22,892 nucleotides of DNA from a virus. The stretch is from positions 1 to 22,892 of the IMG/VR virus record IMGVR_UViG_3300032309_001086; one strand, written 5' to 3'. Of this stretch, positions 2,203 to 19,678 are shown piece after piece (positions within the stretch are counted from its first letter, which is position 1; each line of letters starts with the position of its first letter). Made by a program: the position numbers and the translations under genes. The notes under the pieces are model-generated. The model was not told the DNA's origin, made no database searches, and worked only from the letters and a program-made list of their open reading frames with translations.

Positions 2203-2765
2203 TGAAATCCCCATTTTATTTTATAGCAAAGCCTGTAAATGGTAAACGCTATGACAACACAAAAGACATAGGTGGTATTGAGTTTATAGTCAGTACATCA
2301 GAAGAAGATCATAAGTTCTCTAATAGATATGCTGAAGTTGTAGAACTACCCATCGGCTATGTCGGAACTATATCAATAGGAGATATACTTCTTGTGCATC
2401 ATAATGTATTCAAATTTTATAATGACATTAAAGGCCGACAAAAAAGTGGTAAAAGTTTCTTCAAAGAAGATTTATTCTTTATTGAAATAGACCAATTTTT
2501 TATGTACAAAAAAGGAGATACATGGTACGCATACGACAGATATTGCTTTGTTAAACCAATACCAACAATAGAATCATATATATCTAAGCCTTTCTCAGAA
2601 GAACCATTAATGGGGATTATGAAGTATCCAAATGAGTACCTATCAACGAAAGGCGTAAGATCCGGGGATATGGTTTGTTTCGTACCTGATAGTGAATATG
2701 AATTTAATATTGATGGAGAGAAGTTATATAGAATGTATGACCATCAAATAACAATGAAGCTATGA
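2202..2765 (+). CDS. Two-module GroES-like protein (candidate phage co-chaperonin)
   Basis: The 187-residue protein reads as two GroES-like beta-barrels. Module 1 (about residues 22-103) has an IGGIEF segment, then AEVVELP, then ISIGDILLVHHNVF with G60-D61, then a polar loop (71-84) and a strand ending DQFFMYK. Module 2 (about 136-187) has MGIMKYP, GVRSGDMVCF with G155-D156, then YEFNIDGEKLYRMYDHQI. The last part aligns by eye with the GroES ending (VGD.V.F, DGE.Y......DI). In GroES the same order is GGI, a mobile-loop region, V...VGD.V and a C-terminal strand; T4 gp31 is the known phage analogue that helps GroEL fold the capsid protein. Helping fold this phage's MCP is inferred. Position between small genes and the terminase fits an assembly role. 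The fold call rests on pattern recognition only. Confidence 0.55.
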   Translation: MKSPFYFIAKPVNGKRYDNTKDIGGIEFIVSTSEEDHKFSNRYAEVVELPIGYVGTISIGDILLVHHNVFKFYNDIKGRQKSGKSFFKEDLFFIEIDQFFMYKKGDTWYAYDRYCFVKPIPTIESYISKPFSEEPLMGIMKYPNEYLSTKGVRSGDMVCFVPDSEYEFNIDGEKLYRMYDHQITMKL

Positions 2766-3046
2766 CACCTAAAGAAACAAAACTAAAGATTATTTCTGCC
2801 GGGCATAAAGCAGTACTTGAGTTAATCAAAGTAGCTGAAGAACCTATTTTAAATATTGATGATATTGGAGGTGAATTGGCTGCGGACAAATTAAAAAATG
2901 CTGCTGCTACAAAAAAATTAGCTATATTTGATGCATTCGAGATTTTAAATAGAATAGAATCTGAGAAAGAAGGCATAGAATTATCTGAAAAAGGTATTAA
3001 TAAAATTGATTCAAAACAAGGATTTGCAGAAAGAAGGTCAAAATAA
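2762..3046 (+). CDS. Small helical protein in the small-terminase position
   Basis: This 94-residue protein is predicted to be nearly all helix (KLKIISAGHKAVLELIKVAE, then ELAADKLKNAAATKKLAIFD and AFEILNRIESEKEG). It has no clear helix-turn-helix and no membrane segment. Its ATG overlaps the previous stop (ATGA), and its 3' end overlaps the start of the terminase large subunit by about 40 bases. In many tailed phages the gene directly before the large terminase encodes the small DNA-recognition subunit, so that is the leading hypothesis. The size is at the low end for small terminases and I do not recognise the sequence. It could equally be another packaging accessory protein. Confidence 0.65.
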   Translation: MTPKETKLKIISAGHKAVLELIKVAEEPILNIDDIGGELAADKLKNAAATKKLAIFDAFEILNRIESEKEGIELSEKGINKIDSKQGFAERRSK

Positions 3047-5270
3047 TATCTATACCATAGTAAGGGATCATATACCTTCTAATGCTATTACTAAAAAAAA
3101 TAGTAATAAGTCTTGGATATATGGATACAATGACCAATATGATGTTGTAGTAATATCAAAGACAGGAGAGATAGGAGATATAATTAATATATCAGGACTT
3201 AATATCGCTCTTCCTAAAACACCAAAAGATTGTTTTAAAAGAAGCAATTCAAAAGCTGAACAGTATTGGGAAAGACAACCAATACCTAAAGAACTTTCAA
3301 GAATACAATCAATATTTCAATGGAATGAAATGGCAGCTGAATTTAAAAACAGATGGGTTGATTACATTGAAAATGAATTTGATCTTAGAGAGCAAGGTTT
3401 TTGGTTTATGAATAATGGAACTCCTACTTACATAACAGGTTCTCACTATATGTATCTTCAATGGTCTAGTATAGATGTTGGATACCCTGACTTTCGTGAA
3501 GCCAATAGGATATATTGGATTTTTTGGGAAGCGTGTAAGGCAGATGAGAGAAGTTTTGGAATGATATACTTAAAGATTAGACGTTCAGGATTCTCATTTA
3601 TGTCATCATCTGAATGTGTAAATATAGGAACACTTGCTCGTGATGCAAGGATAGGTATCTTATCAAAAACAGGAGCCGATGCTAAAAAGATGTTTACTGA
3701 TAAAGTAGTTCCTATAAACAATAGACTTCCGTTCTTCTTTAAACCTATTATGGATGGTATGGACAAACCAAAGACAGAGTTGGCTTTCCGTGTACCGGCA
3801 TCTAAGATTACGAAGAAGAATATGTATGATATAGATAGTGATGCTATAGATGGTTTGGACACATCAATAGATTGGAAGAACACAGAAGAGAACTCCTATG
3901 ATGGAGAAAAGCTTATATTTTTAGCTCATGACGAAAGTGCAAAATGGGTTAAGCCAAATAACATTCAAAACAATTGGCGAGTTACCAAGACATGTCTTAG
4001 ATTAGGTAGCAAGATTATTGGAAAATGTATGATGGGTTCAACCTCAAATGCATTATCAAAAGGAGGTCAAAACTACAAAGACCTATATGAAGATTCAATG
4101 GTAGGAAGTCGTAATGCTAATGGTCAAACCAAGAGTGGTTTATATGGCTTGTTCATTCCTATGGAGTGGAACATGGAGGGTTTCATAGACATCTATGGTA
4201 TGCCTGTGTTCTACAAACCGGAGACACCTATTAAAGGAGTTGATGGTATGATGATAAAAAATGGAGCTGTTGAGTATTGGGAAGCAGAGGTTGATTCTTT
4301 AAAAAGCGATTCTGATGCTTTAAATGAGTTTTATCGTCAGTTCCCTAGAACAACATCACATGCGTTCAGAGATGAAAGTAAACAGTCTCTATTTAATCTT
4401 ACAAAGATATATCAGCAGATTGATTATAACGACAGTTTAGTTAAGGAGCATTTTTTAACAAGAGGTTCTTTTCATTGGAAAGATGGAATTAAAGATAGTA
4501 AAGTTATATTCACTCCTGACTCAAGGGGTAGGTTCTTGGTAAGTTGGACACCTGCAAAGCACCTTCAAAATAATGTTCATATACGAAATGGATCTAAGTA
4601 TCCCGGTAATGAATATCTAGGATCTTTTGGGTGTGACTCTTATGATATATCTGCAGTAGTTGGAGGTAGAGGGTCGAATGGTTCGCTTCATGGTCTTACT
4701 AAATTTCACATGGATGAAGCTCCTGTAAACGAGTTTTTCCTTGAATACATAGCAAGACCTCAAACAGCAGAGATATTCTTTGAGGAGGTATTAATGGCTT
4801 GTGTGTTTTATGGTATGCCAATTCTTATAGAGAACAACAAACCTAGGTTATTGTATCATTTTAAAAATAGAGGTTATAGGAATTATTGTTTGAATAGACC
4901 TGATAAACAATACAATAAACTAACAAAAACAGAGAGAGAACTTGGAGGTATCCCAAACTCATCTGAAGATGTAAAGCAGTCTCACGCTTCTGCAATCGAG
5001 TCTTACATAGAGAGATATGTCGGATTTGATTTAGCAGGTGCTTATAGAGAGTCTGATGAAATGGGAACTATGCCATTCACAAGAACATTAGAAGATTGGG
5101 CAAAGTTTGACATAAACGACAGAACAAAATTTGATGCTTCTATTAGTTCAGGATTGGCTATTATGGCCAATCAAAAGCATTTATATTTACCCGAGAAAAA
5201 AGATTCAAAAATTATTGTTAACTTCGCAAGGTATTCTAATGAAGGAACAACAAGTCAAATAATTACATGA
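3006..5270 (+). CDS. terL: Terminase large subunit (DNA-packaging ATPase and nuclease)
   Basis: This 754-residue motor pumps phage DNA into the prohead through the portal and cuts it. The ATPase half shows a P-loop-like segment KIRRSGFS (190-197), lacking the classic GKS/T lysine; a Walker B strand with catalytic acid, LIFLAHDE (303-310); and a motif III-like MMGSTSN (342-348). The nuclease half shows an RNase H-type first acid in FGCDSYD (D544), a second in ILIEN (E609) and a third in TKFDASIS (D710). The usual order and spacing are kept, so both activities are probably intact. The start is a TTG overlapping the preceding gene: an in-frame TAG lies at 2976-2978, the first in-frame ATG is beyond residue 100, and the region between is clearly coding. 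A CTG at 2985 is an alternative start. The stop overlaps the portal ATG (ATGA). Confidence 0.93.
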   Translation: MIQNKDLQKEGQNNIYTIVRDHIPSNAITKKNSNKSWIYGYNDQYDVVVISKTGEIGDIINISGLNIALPKTPKDCFKRSNSKAEQYWERQPIPKELSRIQSIFQWNEMAAEFKNRWVDYIENEFDLREQGFWFMNNGTPTYITGSHYMYLQWSSIDVGYPDFREANRIYWIFWEACKADERSFGMIYLKIRRSGFSFMSSSECVNIGTLARDARIGILSKTGADAKKMFTDKVVPINNRLPFFFKPIMDGMDKPKTELAFRVPASKITKKNMYDIDSDAIDGLDTSIDWKNTEENSYDGEKLIFLAHDESAKWVKPNNIQNNWRVTKTCLRLGSKIIGKCMMGSTSNALSKGGQNYKDLYEDSMVGSRNANGQTKSGLYGLFIPMEWNMEGFIDIYGMPVFYKPETPIKGVDGMMIKNGAVEYWEAEVDSLKSDSDALNEFYRQFPRTTSHAFRDESKQSLFNLTKIYQQIDYNDSLVKEHFLTRGSFHWKDGIKDSKVIFTPDSRGRFLVSWTPAKHLQNNVHIRNGSKYPGNEYLGSFGCDSYDISAVVGGRGSNGSLHGLTKFHMDEAPVNEFFLEYIARPQTAEIFFEEVLMACVFYGMPILIENNKPRLLYHFKNRGYRNYCLNRPDKQYNKLTKTERELGGIPNSSEDVKQSHASAIESYIERYVGFDLAGAYRESDEMGTMPFTRTLEDWAKFDINDRTKFDASISSGLAIMANQKHLYLPEKKDSKIIVNFARYSNEGTTSQIIT

Positions 5271-7702
5271 AAAACGTAACAATAGATATAACATCGTCAG
5301 CCTTTCCGAGTCAGTTAGCTACTGATGCGGTTAAAGCTTCCCAACAATTTGGGTTACAAGTAGGTCAAGCCATTCAATATGAGTGGTTTAGAAAAGATGG
5401 AAACTCTTGTAGGTATTATAGTCAATGGAGAGAGTTTCACAGATTGAGACTTTATGCAAGAGGCGAGCAGTCTGTTGCTAAGTATAAGAATGAATTAGCT
5501 ATTGATGGAGACTTATCATATCTAAATTTAGATTGGACACCTGTTCCTGTAATACCAAAGTTTGTTGATATTATTGTAAATGGAATGTCAAATAGACTTT
5601 TTAAAGTTAAAGCATATTCTCAAGATGCAATGTCTCAAGCAAAAAGAAACAAGCATCAAGAGTTGGTAGAGTCTCAAATGGCAGCTAAAGAAGCTTTAAC
5701 TAAAATACAAGAGTTATCAGGTGCAAATCCATTTATAATGGATCCTGAAAAGTTGCCTAATAATGATGAGGAATTATCATTATATATGCAGTTAAACTAT
5801 AAACCTGCTATTGAGATTGCCGAAGAAGAAGCTATAAATACAATGTTTGATGAAAACCATTATGATGAGGTTCGTAAGAGACTTGATTATGATGCTACAG
5901 TACTTGGTATTTCGGTTGCTAAACATGAATTTCTTCAAGGAGCAGGAATAAAAATATCTTATGTTGACCCTGCAAATGTTGTTTATAGTTATACCGAAGA
6001 TCCTTATTTCAGAGATTGTTTTTATTGGGGAGAGATTAAAACTTTGCCGATAACAGAGTTGATGAAGATAGACCAAAGTTTGACAAAAGAGCAATTGCAA
6101 GAAATAACTCAGTATAGTCAAACTTGGTATGATTATTATAATGTTGCTCAATTTTATGAGAACAGTGTATTTTCAAGAGACACGTGTACGTTAATGTATT
6201 TTAATTATAAGACTACAAAGAAAGTAGTTTATAAAAAGAAAATACTTGATAATGGTGGGTCTAGGCTTATCGAGAAAGATGATAGTTTTAATCCTCCAAC
6301 AGAAATGATGGAAGAAGGGAACTTTGAAAAAATACAAAAAACTATTGACGTTTGGTACGAAGGTATTATGGTTATGGGAACCAATATCTTATTGCAGTGG
6401 AAATTATCTGAGAATATGGTGAGACCTAAATCAGCTACTCAACATGCTTTACCGAACTATGTGGCATCTGCTCCTCGTATGTACAAGGGTATTATTGAGT
6501 CTACAGTAAGAAGAATGATACCATTTGCTGACCTTATTCAAATTACTCACTTAAAACTTCAACAAGTAATCAATAGAGTTGTACCTGATGGTGTATTCAT
6601 TGATGCTGATGGATTAAACGAAGTTGATTTAGGTACAGGTGCTGCTTATAATCCTGAGGATGCTTTGAGACTATACTTCCAAACAGGTAGTGTTATTGGT
6701 AGAAGTTATACTCAAGATGGAGAGTTTAATAATGCGAGAGTTCCAATTACCCAATTAACATCGAACTCAGGATTGAGTAAGACTCAAATGCTTATAGGTA
6801 ACTATAATCATTATATGGATATGATTAGAACGGTAACAGGGTTGAATGAAGCGAGAGATGGTTCTACACCTGATCCTAATTCGTTAGTAGGTTTACAAAA
6901 ACTTGCTGCTTTAAATTCAAATACTGCTACTCGTCATATTCTCGATGGTGGTTTATTCATATACCGTTCATTAGCAGAAGCATTGACATATAGAATTGCA
7001 GATATCTTAGAATATTCTGATTTCAAAGATGAGTTTATAAATAAAATAGGAAGATATAATGTTTCTATCTTAAACGAAATATCAGACCTTTATATATATG
7101 ACTTTGGTATATTCATAGAAGTGGCTCCTGATGAAGAACAAAAAGCACAACTTGAAGCAAATATTCAAATGGCTTTATCTAAAGGAGATATCAATCTTGA
7201 AGATGCTATTGACATTCGTGAACTTAAGAATCTTAAACTTGCTAATCAATTATTGAAAATGAAGCGAGTTAAGAAACAAGAGCGTGAAGATCAAATGGAA
7301 ATGCAAAAACAAGCTATGGTTGCTCAACAGAATATTCAGTCTCAACAAATGGCGGCTCAAACGGCAATGCAAAAAATGCAAGCTGAATTAGAGATGAAGA
7401 TGAGATTGAAACAAATGGAGACAGAGTATAACATTAAGACAATGCAGGTTGAGGCCGAATTGAAATCACACTTAATGGCAGAGGAGTTCCAATACAATCA
7501 ACAAATAAAAGGTGCAGAAATGCAGACTTTAAGCCAAAGAGAAAAAGAACGTGAAGATGCTAAGGCTAAACGTATTAGCCAACAAAATACAGAGCAATCT
7601 AAACTTATAGACCAACGAAAAAACAATCTTCCTCCTTTGAATTTTGAGTCAAACGAAGATAGTTTAGATGGCTTTGATTTAGGAGAATTTGAGCCTCGAT
7701 AA
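5267..7702 (+). CDS. Portal protein
   Basis: This 811-residue protein directly follows the terminase and overlaps it by four bases, the usual place for the portal. The dodecameric portal forms the DNA channel at one vertex, docks the terminase and later the neck. The N-terminal and central parts (about residues 70-110, with LDWTPVPVIPKFVDIIVNGM, and about 180-600) match the style of crAss-like portals, which are also about 800 residues. About residues 660-785 form a long Met/Gln-rich, strongly charged coiled coil (repeated QMEMQKQ, AMQKMQAELEMKMRL), followed by an acidic tail (SNEDSLDGFDLGEFEPR). The coiled coil would fit the inward crown or barrel of the portal. Identity rests on context, size and family resemblance, because portals carry no catalytic motif. 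Confidence 0.88.
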   Translation: MKNVTIDITSSAFPSQLATDAVKASQQFGLQVGQAIQYEWFRKDGNSCRYYSQWREFHRLRLYARGEQSVAKYKNELAIDGDLSYLNLDWTPVPVIPKFVDIIVNGMSNRLFKVKAYSQDAMSQAKRNKHQELVESQMAAKEALTKIQELSGANPFIMDPEKLPNNDEELSLYMQLNYKPAIEIAEEEAINTMFDENHYDEVRKRLDYDATVLGISVAKHEFLQGAGIKISYVDPANVVYSYTEDPYFRDCFYWGEIKTLPITELMKIDQSLTKEQLQEITQYSQTWYDYYNVAQFYENSVFSRDTCTLMYFNYKTTKKVVYKKKILDNGGSRLIEKDDSFNPPTEMMEEGNFEKIQKTIDVWYEGIMVMGTNILLQWKLSENMVRPKSATQHALPNYVASAPRMYKGIIESTVRRMIPFADLIQITHLKLQQVINRVVPDGVFIDADGLNEVDLGTGAAYNPEDALRLYFQTGSVIGRSYTQDGEFNNARVPITQLTSNSGLSKTQMLIGNYNHYMDMIRTVTGLNEARDGSTPDPNSLVGLQKLAALNSNTATRHILDGGLFIYRSLAEALTYRIADILEYSDFKDEFINKIGRYNVSILNEISDLYIYDFGIFIEVAPDEEQKAQLEANIQMALSKGDINLEDAIDIRELKNLKLANQLLKMKRVKKQEREDQMEMQKQAMVAQQNIQSQQMAAQTAMQKMQAELEMKMRLKQMETEYNIKTMQVEAELKSHLMAEEFQYNQQIKGAEMQTLSQREKEREDAKAKRISQQNTEQSKLIDQRKNNLPPLNFESNEDSLDGFDLGEFEPR

Positions 7703-7750: not shown

Positions 7751-8851
7751 ATGGAATTAAAAGTTAGATTATTAGATGGCACAGAAGAAAAAGGAGTTGC
7801 ACAAGTAGAACAAGAGTTACTTGAAAAACATGAGCAACAATTTGAAGAACCTGTACAAGATATTGTACAGAATGACGTGCAACAACAGGATGAAGTACAA
7901 GATATTTTACAACAACCTGAACTAGAGGAACAACAAGTTCTTTCATATATTGAAAAAAGATACAATAAGCAGATAAACTCTCTTGATGAGTTAGCAGCTC
8001 AAAGACAAGAGACTGAGGCTTTGCCTGAAGATGTTGCTGCTTATATGAAATACAAAAAGGAAACAGGAAGAGGTTTCGAGGATTTCTTAAGTCTTAAAAA
8101 AGACTACGATTCTATGGACCCTGAAAGTTTACTTAAAAATTATTTATCAGCAACTCAAGAAGGACTTGATGCTGATGACATTGACGCTCTAATGGATGAT
8201 TATCGATATGACGAAGATATTGATGATGAATCACACATTAAGAGAGTTAAGATTACAACAAAAAAGGCTGTTGCTGAGGCAAGAAAATTTTTTAATGCTC
8301 AAAAAGAAAAATACAAAGTGCCACTTGAGTCAAGTGTTCCACTTGTTTCTGATGAGGAAAAAGAAGTTTACGAAAGCTATAAGCAATATACCAAGCGAGC
8401 GAAGACTATTGAGGAAGAAAACGAAAGAAAGAGAGGTTGGTTTAATCAAAAAACTGACGAAGTTTTTAGCGGAGAGTTCAAAGGTTTTGAGTTCAATGTT
8501 GATGACAGAAAAATCACTTTCAATCCGGGAGACGCTGCTGAACTTAAGAAAGTCCAATCTAATCCTTCAAACTTTATAAATAAGTTTTTGGATGAACAAG
8601 GATTAATTAAAGATGCAGTCGGTTATCATAAGTCGTTAGCAATTGCTATGAATCCTGAGAAGTTTGCTAAGTTCTTTTATGAGCAAGGTAAATCAGATGC
8701 AACGGAGGGAACAATGAAAGGCATTAAGAATATAAACATGTCTGAAAGAAAAACTCCTGAAGTTATCAAACCAATGGATGGAATGCAGGTAAAAGCGGTA
8801 AATCCTGATTCGGGTAAAAGCCTAAAAATCCGTAGTATAAAAAGAATATAA
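7751..8851 (+). CDS. Scaffold-like head assembly protein
   Basis: This 366-residue protein lies between portal and MCP, the classic scaffold position. The N-terminal 65 residues are Gln/Glu-rich and low in complexity, with a repeated VQDI(V/L)Q segment. An acidic stretch follows at about residues 135-160 (DADDIDALMDDYRYDEDIDD), then a charged helical middle, and a basic C-terminus (GKSLKIRSIKRI). Acidic helical bodies with a basic C-terminal capsid-binding tail are typical of phage scaffolds, which organise MCP and leave before or during packaging. No protease motif is recognised. It has its own promoter-like box, and the MCP follows 19 bases after its stop, so the pair is probably one transcript. 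An internal capsid cargo protein is the alternative. Confidence 0.65.
   Translation: MELKVRLLDGTEEKGVAQVEQELLEKHEQQFEEPVQDIVQNDVQQQDEVQDILQQPELEEQQVLSYIEKRYNKQINSLDELAAQRQETEALPEDVAAYMKYKKETGRGFEDFLSLKKDYDSMDPESLLKNYLSATQEGLDADDIDALMDDYRYDEDIDDESHIKRVKITTKKAVAEARKFFNAQKEKYKVPLESSVPLVSDEEKEVYESYKQYTKRAKTIEEENERKRGWFNQKTDEVFSGEFKGFEFNVDDRKITFNPGDAAELKKVQSNPSNFINKFLDEQGLIKDAVGYHKSLAIAMNPEKFAKFFYEQGKSDATEGTMKGIKNINMSERKTPEVIKPMDGMQVKAVNPDSGKSLKIRSIKRI
7853..7906 (+). repeat. Short direct repeat inside the scaffold gene
   Basis: GTACAAGATATT occurs at 7853-7864 and again at 7895-7906, 42 bases (14 codons) apart and in frame. It encodes the repeated VQDI segment of the Gln-rich N-terminal arm. It looks like a small internal duplication in a low-complexity region. 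Confidence 0.6.
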
Positions 8852-8859
8852 ATTTTAAA
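8847..8859 (+). promoter_or_regulatory. Leader motif TATAAATTTTAAA before the capsid gene
   Basis: This 13-base AT-only motif starts in the last codons of the scaffold gene and ends 11 bases before the MCP ATG. The identical 13 bases occur at 10342-10354 before the next gene. It may be a phage promoter (it contains TATAAAT) or an A/T-rich translation leader. In such AT-rich DNA chance cannot be excluded. Confidence 0.25.
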
Positions 8860-8870
8860 AAAAAGTAAAA

Positions 8871-10298
8871 ATGGCAGGTTAATTAAACCCAACGCCTACT
8901 TTTGCATTACAACCGGCAGCGGAGCAAGTAGCGTTATCGACAAACTATATTACTAACTTCAACTTCTTAAATCAGTATCTTCCTGATACTTACGAAAAAG
9001 AATTTGAGCGTTATGGTAATAGAACCATCGCATCATTCTTAAGAATGGTAGGTGCAGAGATGCCTTCTAACTCTGACCAAATCAAATGGGCAGAACAAGG
9101 TCGTCTTCACATTAAGTACACTAACTGTACTTCAAATGCAGCAATTAACACAGGTACAGCTACTTTTACAGTTGCTGATGCAGGAGTTACTTACATTGCT
9201 ATTAGAATTGGACAAACTGTAATGATTCAGAATAACACTTCAGGTGTTTTCAACAAAGCAATCGTTACTGCTGTTCCTACAGCAACTACTTTCACAGTAG
9301 CTTACTATGAGGCAACAGGTCAAGCTTTTGCTGTAAACACTCAATGTACTGTATTCATTTATGGTTCAGAGTTCAAAAAAGGAACTAACGGAATGGTTGG
9401 TTCTTTGGAAGCAGAAGATTCAATCTTCTCTAACAAGCCTATTATCATTAAAGATAAATATGCTGTTAATGGTTCAGACATGGCTCAAATCGGATGGGTT
9501 GAGGTTACTACTGAGAACGGTGCTACAGGTTACTTGTGGTATTTGAAATCAGAGCATGAAACTCGTTTGAGATTCGAGGATTACTTAGAAACTGCTATGA
9601 TCGAAGCTGTTCCTGCTGAAGCAGGTTCAGGAGCATTAGCTGCTTTAGGTGGTGTTGCCGGAGGTTCTGAAGGAGTTTTCTATGTTGTAAACAACAGAGG
9701 AAATGTTTGGGGAAGTGGTACACCAACTTCTTTAGCTGATTGGGATTCAATCGTTTCTCGTTTGGACAAACAAGGAGCTATCGAAGAAAACGTAGTGTTT
9801 GTTAATCGTGGATTGTCTTTCGACATCGACAATATGTTAGCTACATTGAACGGATTTAACGGAGTGAATGCTGCGGGAGCTGCATCTTACGGTTTATTCG
9901 ACAATGATACTGATATGGCATTGAACTTAGGATTCACAGGATTCCGTAGAGGTTACGATTTCTACAAATCTGATTGGAAATACCTAAACGATCCTACAAT
10001 GAGAGGTGGTTTAAATGCTACAGCAGGTACTGCTACAGGTACAATCACAGGTCTTTTAGTTCCTGCAGGTTCTACTTCAGTATATGACCAAATCATGGGT
10101 AAAAACGCTAAGAGACCATTCTTACACGTTAGATACCGTGCTTCAGAAGCTGAGGATAGAAGATACAAAACTTGGATCACAGGTTCTGCCGGAGGTGCTC
10201 AAAACTCAGATCTTGACGCAATGGAGGTTAACTTCTTGTCTGAAAGATGTGTATGTACTTTAGGTGCAAATAACTTTGTATTATTCCGTTACGGTTAA
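8871..10298 (+). CDS. Major capsid protein, with an in-frame TAA at codon 4
   Basis: The frame opens ATG GCA GGT TAA and then runs without another stop to 10298: three residues, a stop, then 471 codons. After the stop it reads LNPTPTFALQPAAEQV and so on, clearly the N-arm of a capsid protein. The first ATG after the stop (9045) would drop 58 codon positions, and no GTG, TTG or CTG lies between. HK97-fold MCP of crAss-like phages is the best match: EMPSNSDQIKWAEQGRLHIK, the IGWVEVTTENGATGYLWYLK block and length near 475. Codon choice is richer in AAC, TTC and CGT than in neighbours, as expected for the most expressed gene. A single C in place of T8880 would restore CAA (Gln). A strong terminator follows. 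Identity is confident; how the N-terminus is translated is unresolved. Confidence 0.87.
8880..8882 (+). other. In-frame TAA stop at codon 4 of the capsid gene
   Basis: T8880-A8882 is TAA in the capsid frame and sits inside TTAATTAA (8879-8886). The ATG at 8871 follows an A-rich leader like those of the other genes, and the frame on both sides is the same, so no frameshift is needed to explain the protein. Either the sequenced copy carries a nonsense change (CAA to TAA is one transition), the base is an assembly or read error, or the codon is read through. Confidence 0.9.
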
Positions 10299-10310
10299 TA
10301 TATAGTATAG

Positions 10311-10342
10311 GGGTGCGGTGATAATCACCGCATCCTTTTTTT
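10311..10342 (+). terminator. Rho-independent terminator after the capsid gene
   Basis: GGGTGCGGTGA (10311-10321) pairs with TCACCGCATCC (10325-10335) over 11 bases with one G-T wobble and a three-base loop, followed by seven T. It lies 12 bases after the MCP stop and is the most GC-rich hairpin in the window. It probably ends or attenuates the scaffold-MCP transcript. Confidence 0.92.
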
Positions 10343-18847: not shown

Positions 18848-19678
18848 ATGACATATACATTATCATATAGCGAAGCAGTTGCAGGTTGGGTATCTTTTTA
18901 CTCTTACGAGCCTGATTGGATGATTGGAATGAATAATTATTTCTACACATTCAAAGGAGGAAATTTGTATCGCCACAACACCGGTGTTGCTAGAAATACG
19001 TTCTATCAAGAGTGGTGGGATGAAGTGGATCACGTAGTACCTCCAAATAAATCACCTAGAGCTTTTAAGCCATCTAAAATAACAAGCGTATTCAATAACG
19101 CTGTGCTTGAGAATAAAATATTTAAGACCATAAATCTTGAAGGTGATGCTCCTTGGGGAGTAACTCTTCAGACAGACTTACAATACTCAGGTTTTATAGA
19201 CCAATCTTGGTTTGAAAAGAAAGAGGCATCTTATTATGCTTTTGTTAGAAATAACTCTAATGGACAACTTGCTCTTAGAAGTGTAAATGGTATAGGAAAT
19301 AGTTTAACTGTTGTGGGTAATGGAACAAATAATGCTCAAGTAAACTTTAGCATCAATCCATTGGTATCTATTGGGAACATTATAAGTGTTGGAGACTATG
19401 TTTATTTTGGAGCAAATCTTCAATTTGCAGGACCTGTAATTGACATAAATATTGACTATATATCAGGTATAAACCAAATCGTTGTAAACAACAATATGCT
19501 AACTCCATTAACTACTCCAATACCGGGGAATGTTAACTACTTCTTATTCGTGAAAAATTCAGTAGCTGAATCGCATGGAGTTTTAGGACATTATTGTACA
19601 TTTACACTTGAGAATGGATCTAATGGAAAAGTTGAATTATTTTCAGTACAATCAAATGTAATGAAAAGTTTCCCTTAA
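18848..19678 (+). CDS. Tail/appendage structural protein, family unknown
   Basis: This 276-residue protein opens TLSYSEAVAGWVSFYSYEPD, then WMIGMNNYFYTFKGGNLYRH, rich in aromatic residues. It ends GHYCTFTLENGSNGKVELFS, then VQSNVMKSFP. Both ends look like strongly conserved blocks, and I associate them with virion proteins of crAss-like and other Bacteroidetes phages, though I cannot name the family. The middle (about 135-235) is beta-rich and polar and looks more variable. There is no membrane segment or catalytic motif. Placed between the tail-tip gene and the ejection-type genes, it is probably a tail or appendage component. A 21-base gap with a -7-like box separates it from the next gene. 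Confidence 0.72.
   Translation: MTYTLSYSEAVAGWVSFYSYEPDWMIGMNNYFYTFKGGNLYRHNTGVARNTFYQEWWDEVDHVVPPNKSPRAFKPSKITSVFNNAVLENKIFKTINLEGDAPWGVTLQTDLQYSGFIDQSWFEKKEASYYAFVRNNSNGQLALRSVNGIGNSLTVVGNGTNNAQVNFSINPLVSIGNIISVGDYVYFGANLQFAGPVIDINIDYISGINQIVVNNNMLTPLTTPIPGNVNYFLFVKNSVAESHGVLGHYCTFTLENGSNGKVELFSVQSNVMKSFP

Follow-up and report, generated by a model that had tools for sequence, protein, structure and literature searches.

Known phage recoding concerns the stop codons TAG or TGA, which are changed throughout (PMC11210395). For prokaryotes, a survey of in-frame stops took only those found in two or more genomes, in order to exclude sequencing errors (PMC7918605). In Flavobacterium, A at positions -3, -12 and -13 has been identified as a positive determinant of translation initiation (PMC6847099). 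We here describe a 22,892-base virus record (hereafter the window), a fragment of an uncultured Bacteroidota podovirus, in which the frame of the capsid gene meets a TAA at its fourth codon. Comparison with related sequences argues very strongly for a capsid that starts at 8871 and normally carries a sense codon at position 4, the TAA of the window being a single C-to-T difference that would represent either a wrong or minority base or a recent defective variant.

The capsid gene and its family

Besides terminase, portal and capsid, further virion genes are also found in the window (Table 1). The part of the capsid after 9045 matches the profile of phrog_13704 (head and packaging) with an E value of 3.7e-92 over residues 4-415 of 417, which is most of the length of that part, and, with the TAA treated as a residue, the start codon and the N-terminal stretch up to NYITNFNFLNQYLPDTYEKEFERYGNR are those of every intact relative. 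The best named match is Caudoviricetes sp. MW202828.1, with a protein identity of 68.5%; Maribacter phage Panino and the elemoviruses of Flavobacterium come next. A relative in the PDB was not found by sequence, and the model predicted from an input of 56 sequences was of poor quality (mean pLDDT 48, N-terminus below 50), so that no role for capsid residues 1-58 is deduced from it.

Some further observations concern the neighbourhood and the nearest named phage. For the terminase, whose exact start is uncertain, the frame begins at a TTG that lies within the gene before it (2762-3046); the annotation of MW202828.1 has a comparable overlap. The same phage carries its own annotated GroEL, adjoining a 10 kDa chaperonin (29672-31562 of that sequence, L201). 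The protein encoded at 18848-19678 of the window has a Pfam match to the C-terminal domain of the Crassvirus muzzle protein (PF25729, E 5.7e-14), which forms a link to crAss-like phages.

Table 1. Positions of the capsid gene, its neighbours and the elements around its start in the window
Feature	Position	Strand	Remark
Terminase	3006-5270		followed by portal
Portal	5267-7702		between terminase and the gene at 7751-8851
Gene of unknown function	7751-8851		upstream neighbour of capsid
A-rich leader without Shine-Dalgarno	8852-8870	+	identical in close relatives with intact gene
Capsid (virion structural protein) gene	8871-10298	+	475 codons with the codon-4 TAA included
Hypervariable N-terminal block, codons 3-8	8877-8894	+	close relatives carry different alleles
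In-frame TAA, codon 4	8880-8882	+	private to the window contig; sense codon in every intact relative
First ATG past the stop	9045-9047	+	lies inside the gene in all relatives (conserved MVGAEMPSNSD); not the family start codon

The letters at 8871-8882 read ATG GCA GGT TAA, and the same frame then stays open to the TAA at 10296-10298. Chance does not account for this open frame, because its translation agrees with that of the relatives codon by codon; with the TAA counted as a residue, the window departs from none of the 197 columns in which 55 relatives are invariant. The first in-frame ATG, GTG or TTG past the stop is the ATG at 9045, which is preceded by 58 codon positions, 54 of them sense codons past the stop. 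TAA ends 17 of the 19 predicted genes of the window and TGA ends two. These readings confirm what an initial annotation had described from the letters alone, namely capsid sequence continuing in frame after ATG-GCA-GGT-TAA, the absence of ATG, GTG or TTG until 9045, by which normal initiation past the stop would lose 58 codon positions, and the use of TAA at the end of nearly all other genes.

The start of the capsid gene

In relatives with a complete 5' end, which include cultured Flavobacterium and Maribacter phages, the gene starts about 54-60 codons before the equivalent of 9045. Their frame runs upstream from that point through NYITNFNFLNQYLPDTYEKEFERYGNRTIASFLR to this start, and the annotated capsid starts of MW202828.1, of an elemovirus and of phage Panino lie in the same upstream region. 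The start and the N-terminal stretch are common to approximately 160 relatives, and an alignment of 56 sequences has many invariant positions within residues 25-58. Since the relatives start upstream and so many of these residues are invariant, the ATG at 8871 is evidently the true capsid start. Relatives with a start near 9045, which the initial annotation had named as the case that would speak against its own reading, were not seen.

The capsid leader carries A at -3, and the same leader precedes intact genes in relatives. On these grounds ribosomes should initiate at 8871 in the window as well, and would then terminate after three residues.

Codon 4 among relatives

Between the start codon and YEKEFERYGN, none of 163 distinct relative 5' ends contains a stop, except for a single contig (L020, IMGVR_UViG_3300008107_000576) with an upstream deletion. 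In 145 pattern-matched sequences codon 4 is GCA (47), GCT (39), TCA (24), CAA (16), ACA (7), AAT (6) or another sense codon (5), and TAA once, in the window; the residue is thus A, S, Q, T, N or G, with a stop in the window only. Scanned for the N-terminal motif, a collection of 2.9 million viral contigs yielded at least 120 matches when codon 4 was left free and none with TAA or TAG (TAR) at this codon. In bacterial genomes the capsid 5' pattern had no match, and among 50 contigs that have the bare string ATGGCAGGTTAATTA none carries a capsid of this type. Conservation of the stop in independent relatives, as expected of a conserved readthrough site or minigene, was not observed. By these comparisons the stop is apparently private to the window contig; the searches may leave out records very near the window, and a sister contig with the same T could exist.

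Among the closest relatives, a 14-base A-rich leader together with the start is common to eight contigs (95-97% identical DNA), six of which read ATGGCAGGTCAATTAAATTCAACG and two ATGGCAAGTGCATTATTAAATACG; CAA stands at codon 4 in six of the eight. One contig (L169) has a leader identical to that of the window and 97% identity over 8601-10320; its sole differences from the window in the interval 8774-9123 are at 8880, 8888 and 8889. Four more distant contigs (L082, L083, L084 and L085) read ATGGCAGGTCAATTAAACCCAACGCCTACT and differ over the first 30 bases only by a C at 8880. Judged from these alignments, codon 4 of the window is one transition away from a common glutamine codon, CAA. The proposal of the initial annotation, one transition from CAA to TAA at 8880 or a read error, is thereby strengthened, and the comparison of residue 4 in related capsids that it had recommended returned a sense codon in every intact relative.

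The alleles of codons 3-8 are MASALLNT in L003 and L221, MAGQLNS in L169 and L190, and of the MAGQLNP type in the window, and they differ among these contigs despite identical leaders and near-identical DNA after the block. This pattern suggests very local exchange.

State of the rest of the gene

The 49 codons at 8895-9041 are identical at the DNA level to those of L169 and L190, and pN/pS of the whole capsid gene against close relatives is 0.12-0.27. Because of this identity and these ratios, and because no invariant column deviates, the C/T difference appears to be either very recent or not real, a choice that the sequence cannot make. Comparison of the window genes with two long relatives (G002 and G010) shows the packaging and capsid module to be free of further nonsense lesions. 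As, in addition, no invariant capsid column is off, general decay of the contig is rejected.

Other capsid genes of this kind are visibly broken. In L020 (2600-3200) the upstream gene and the capsid are fused out of frame by a deletion, with the junction at TYEKEFERYGN, and in L147 (1485-1838) a frame-shifting deletion breaks the gene after 118 codons, with the remainder in another frame; a defect in one contig is therefore not unusual in such collections. The portal match of L020 (record G011) is also split, into residues 1-413 and 497-811, so that IMGVR_UViG_3300008107_000576 has deletions or misassemblies.

Weighing the explanations

In the closest relatives codon 4 is the glutamine codon CAA, and one metagenome contig would have come to read TAA through a C-to-T change. 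We infer that the base is erroneous or non-functional. An error or a minority base at 8880 in the assembled consensus is in our judgement the probable cause, followed by a recent defective variant (a genuine nonsense mutant of very recent origin, a defective genome within the population or the product of a recombination junction), which we regard as possible and distinctly less likely; a functional stop we judge to be very unlikely. Should the base be real and the host use the standard code, translation would end after three residues, with hardly any capsid produced or none at all. Against an error or defect it can be held that, apart from the stop, the contig bears no sign of poor quality in the capsid gene, and that the T at 8880 could be real and fixed in the strain. 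A junction, as a special case of the same reading, would have arisen in a mixed population or amplification and would combine the T of a GGT TCA allele (MAGSLL type, for instance L005, which reads ATGGCAGGTTCATTATTA) with the AA of an allele that has GGT CAA. Codons 3-8 are indeed swapped between alleles in near-identical contigs (L003 and L221 versus L169 and L190), but the junction must fall within one base, and a simple transition or error gives the same T with less, which makes this origin rather improbable.

That the T is real and fixed, with the capsid made by readthrough, by suppression or by non-standard initiation just past the stop, is very unlikely. A nonsense allele tolerated through TAA suppression or readthrough in the host, for example by a host or phage suppressor tRNA that leaves low but sufficient capsid, would fit the intact and conserved frame past the stop, and in-frame stops under purifying selection have been reported in bacterial genes (PMC7918605). 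We nevertheless consider it highly unlikely. As TAA terminates 17 of 19 genes, most proteins would become longer under effective suppression, and neither the window (a fragment) nor any of seven long relatives showed a tRNA gene. The stop recurs in no relative, so that it would fall outside the survey, which asked for recurrence in at least two genomes (PMC7918605), and the capsid protein is needed in large amounts. Global recoding of TAA is rejected on the same 17 terminators: a recoded stop would be translated in many genes and avoided at gene ends, and TAA stands in frame once. Initiation past the stop, at an unusual codon or as a shorter capsid from 9045, can appeal to an ATG that is in frame with an open frame onward, and to the hypervariability of codons 3-8, which makes them tolerant of change. 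A start at 9045 is rejected, as relatives including the cultured phages start well upstream and the conserved stretch would be lost, a loss that the invariant positions in residues 25-58 indicate should not be tolerated; neither ATG, GTG nor TTG lies between the stop and 9045, and an A-rich tract like that before 8871 is absent before 9045. Initiation past the stop in either form is thus extremely improbable. The probability is next to negligible for a three-codon minigene (MAG-stop) or a conserved leader stop that controls capsid translation: only the shape ATG GCA GGT TAA speaks for it, while start and leader belong to the capsid itself in all relatives and none of the 50 contigs with the bare string carries this capsid. 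As a family feature the minigene is refuted, for no second case was found in the viral collection. Readthrough or suppression, unusual initiation and the minigene, all of which the initial annotation had put forward should the stop be real, thus find no support in the relatives.

Altogether, the codon-4 stop is in all likelihood a one-base sequencing error or a rare defective copy rather than a novel route of protein synthesis, as far as the alignments can tell. The case advises caution: when one metagenome contig shows a stop of its own, its relatives should be consulted before recoding or readthrough is invoked. Were the stop real in a viable phage, this would be an unusual instance of high-level capsid synthesis past a TAA, and if full-length capsid were made despite the T, virion peptides such as LNPTPTFALQPAAEQ would be expected.

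Comparison with known systems

The Crassvirales and Lak phages, in which TAG is changed to glutamine and TGA to tryptophan, resemble the window in that a stop lies inside the frame of a late structural gene and in their Bacteroidota hosts; their recoding affects TAG or TGA throughout, whereas the window has one TAA in one gene and no suppressor tRNA was seen. The prokaryotic in-frame stops of the earlier survey (PMC7918605) share with the window a single nonsense codon in a gene that is otherwise intact, yet those stops occur in two or more genomes and that of the window in one contig only. The closest likeness is to the phrog_13704 family, known from podoviruses of Bacteroidota (Flavobacterium elemoviruses, Maribacter phage Panino and the uncultured Caudoviricetes MW202828.1), which the window matches over the full length of the capsid, in the gene order of terminase, portal, gene and capsid, and in start position and N-terminal motif; the stop at codon 4 sets the window contig apart from the rest of this family.
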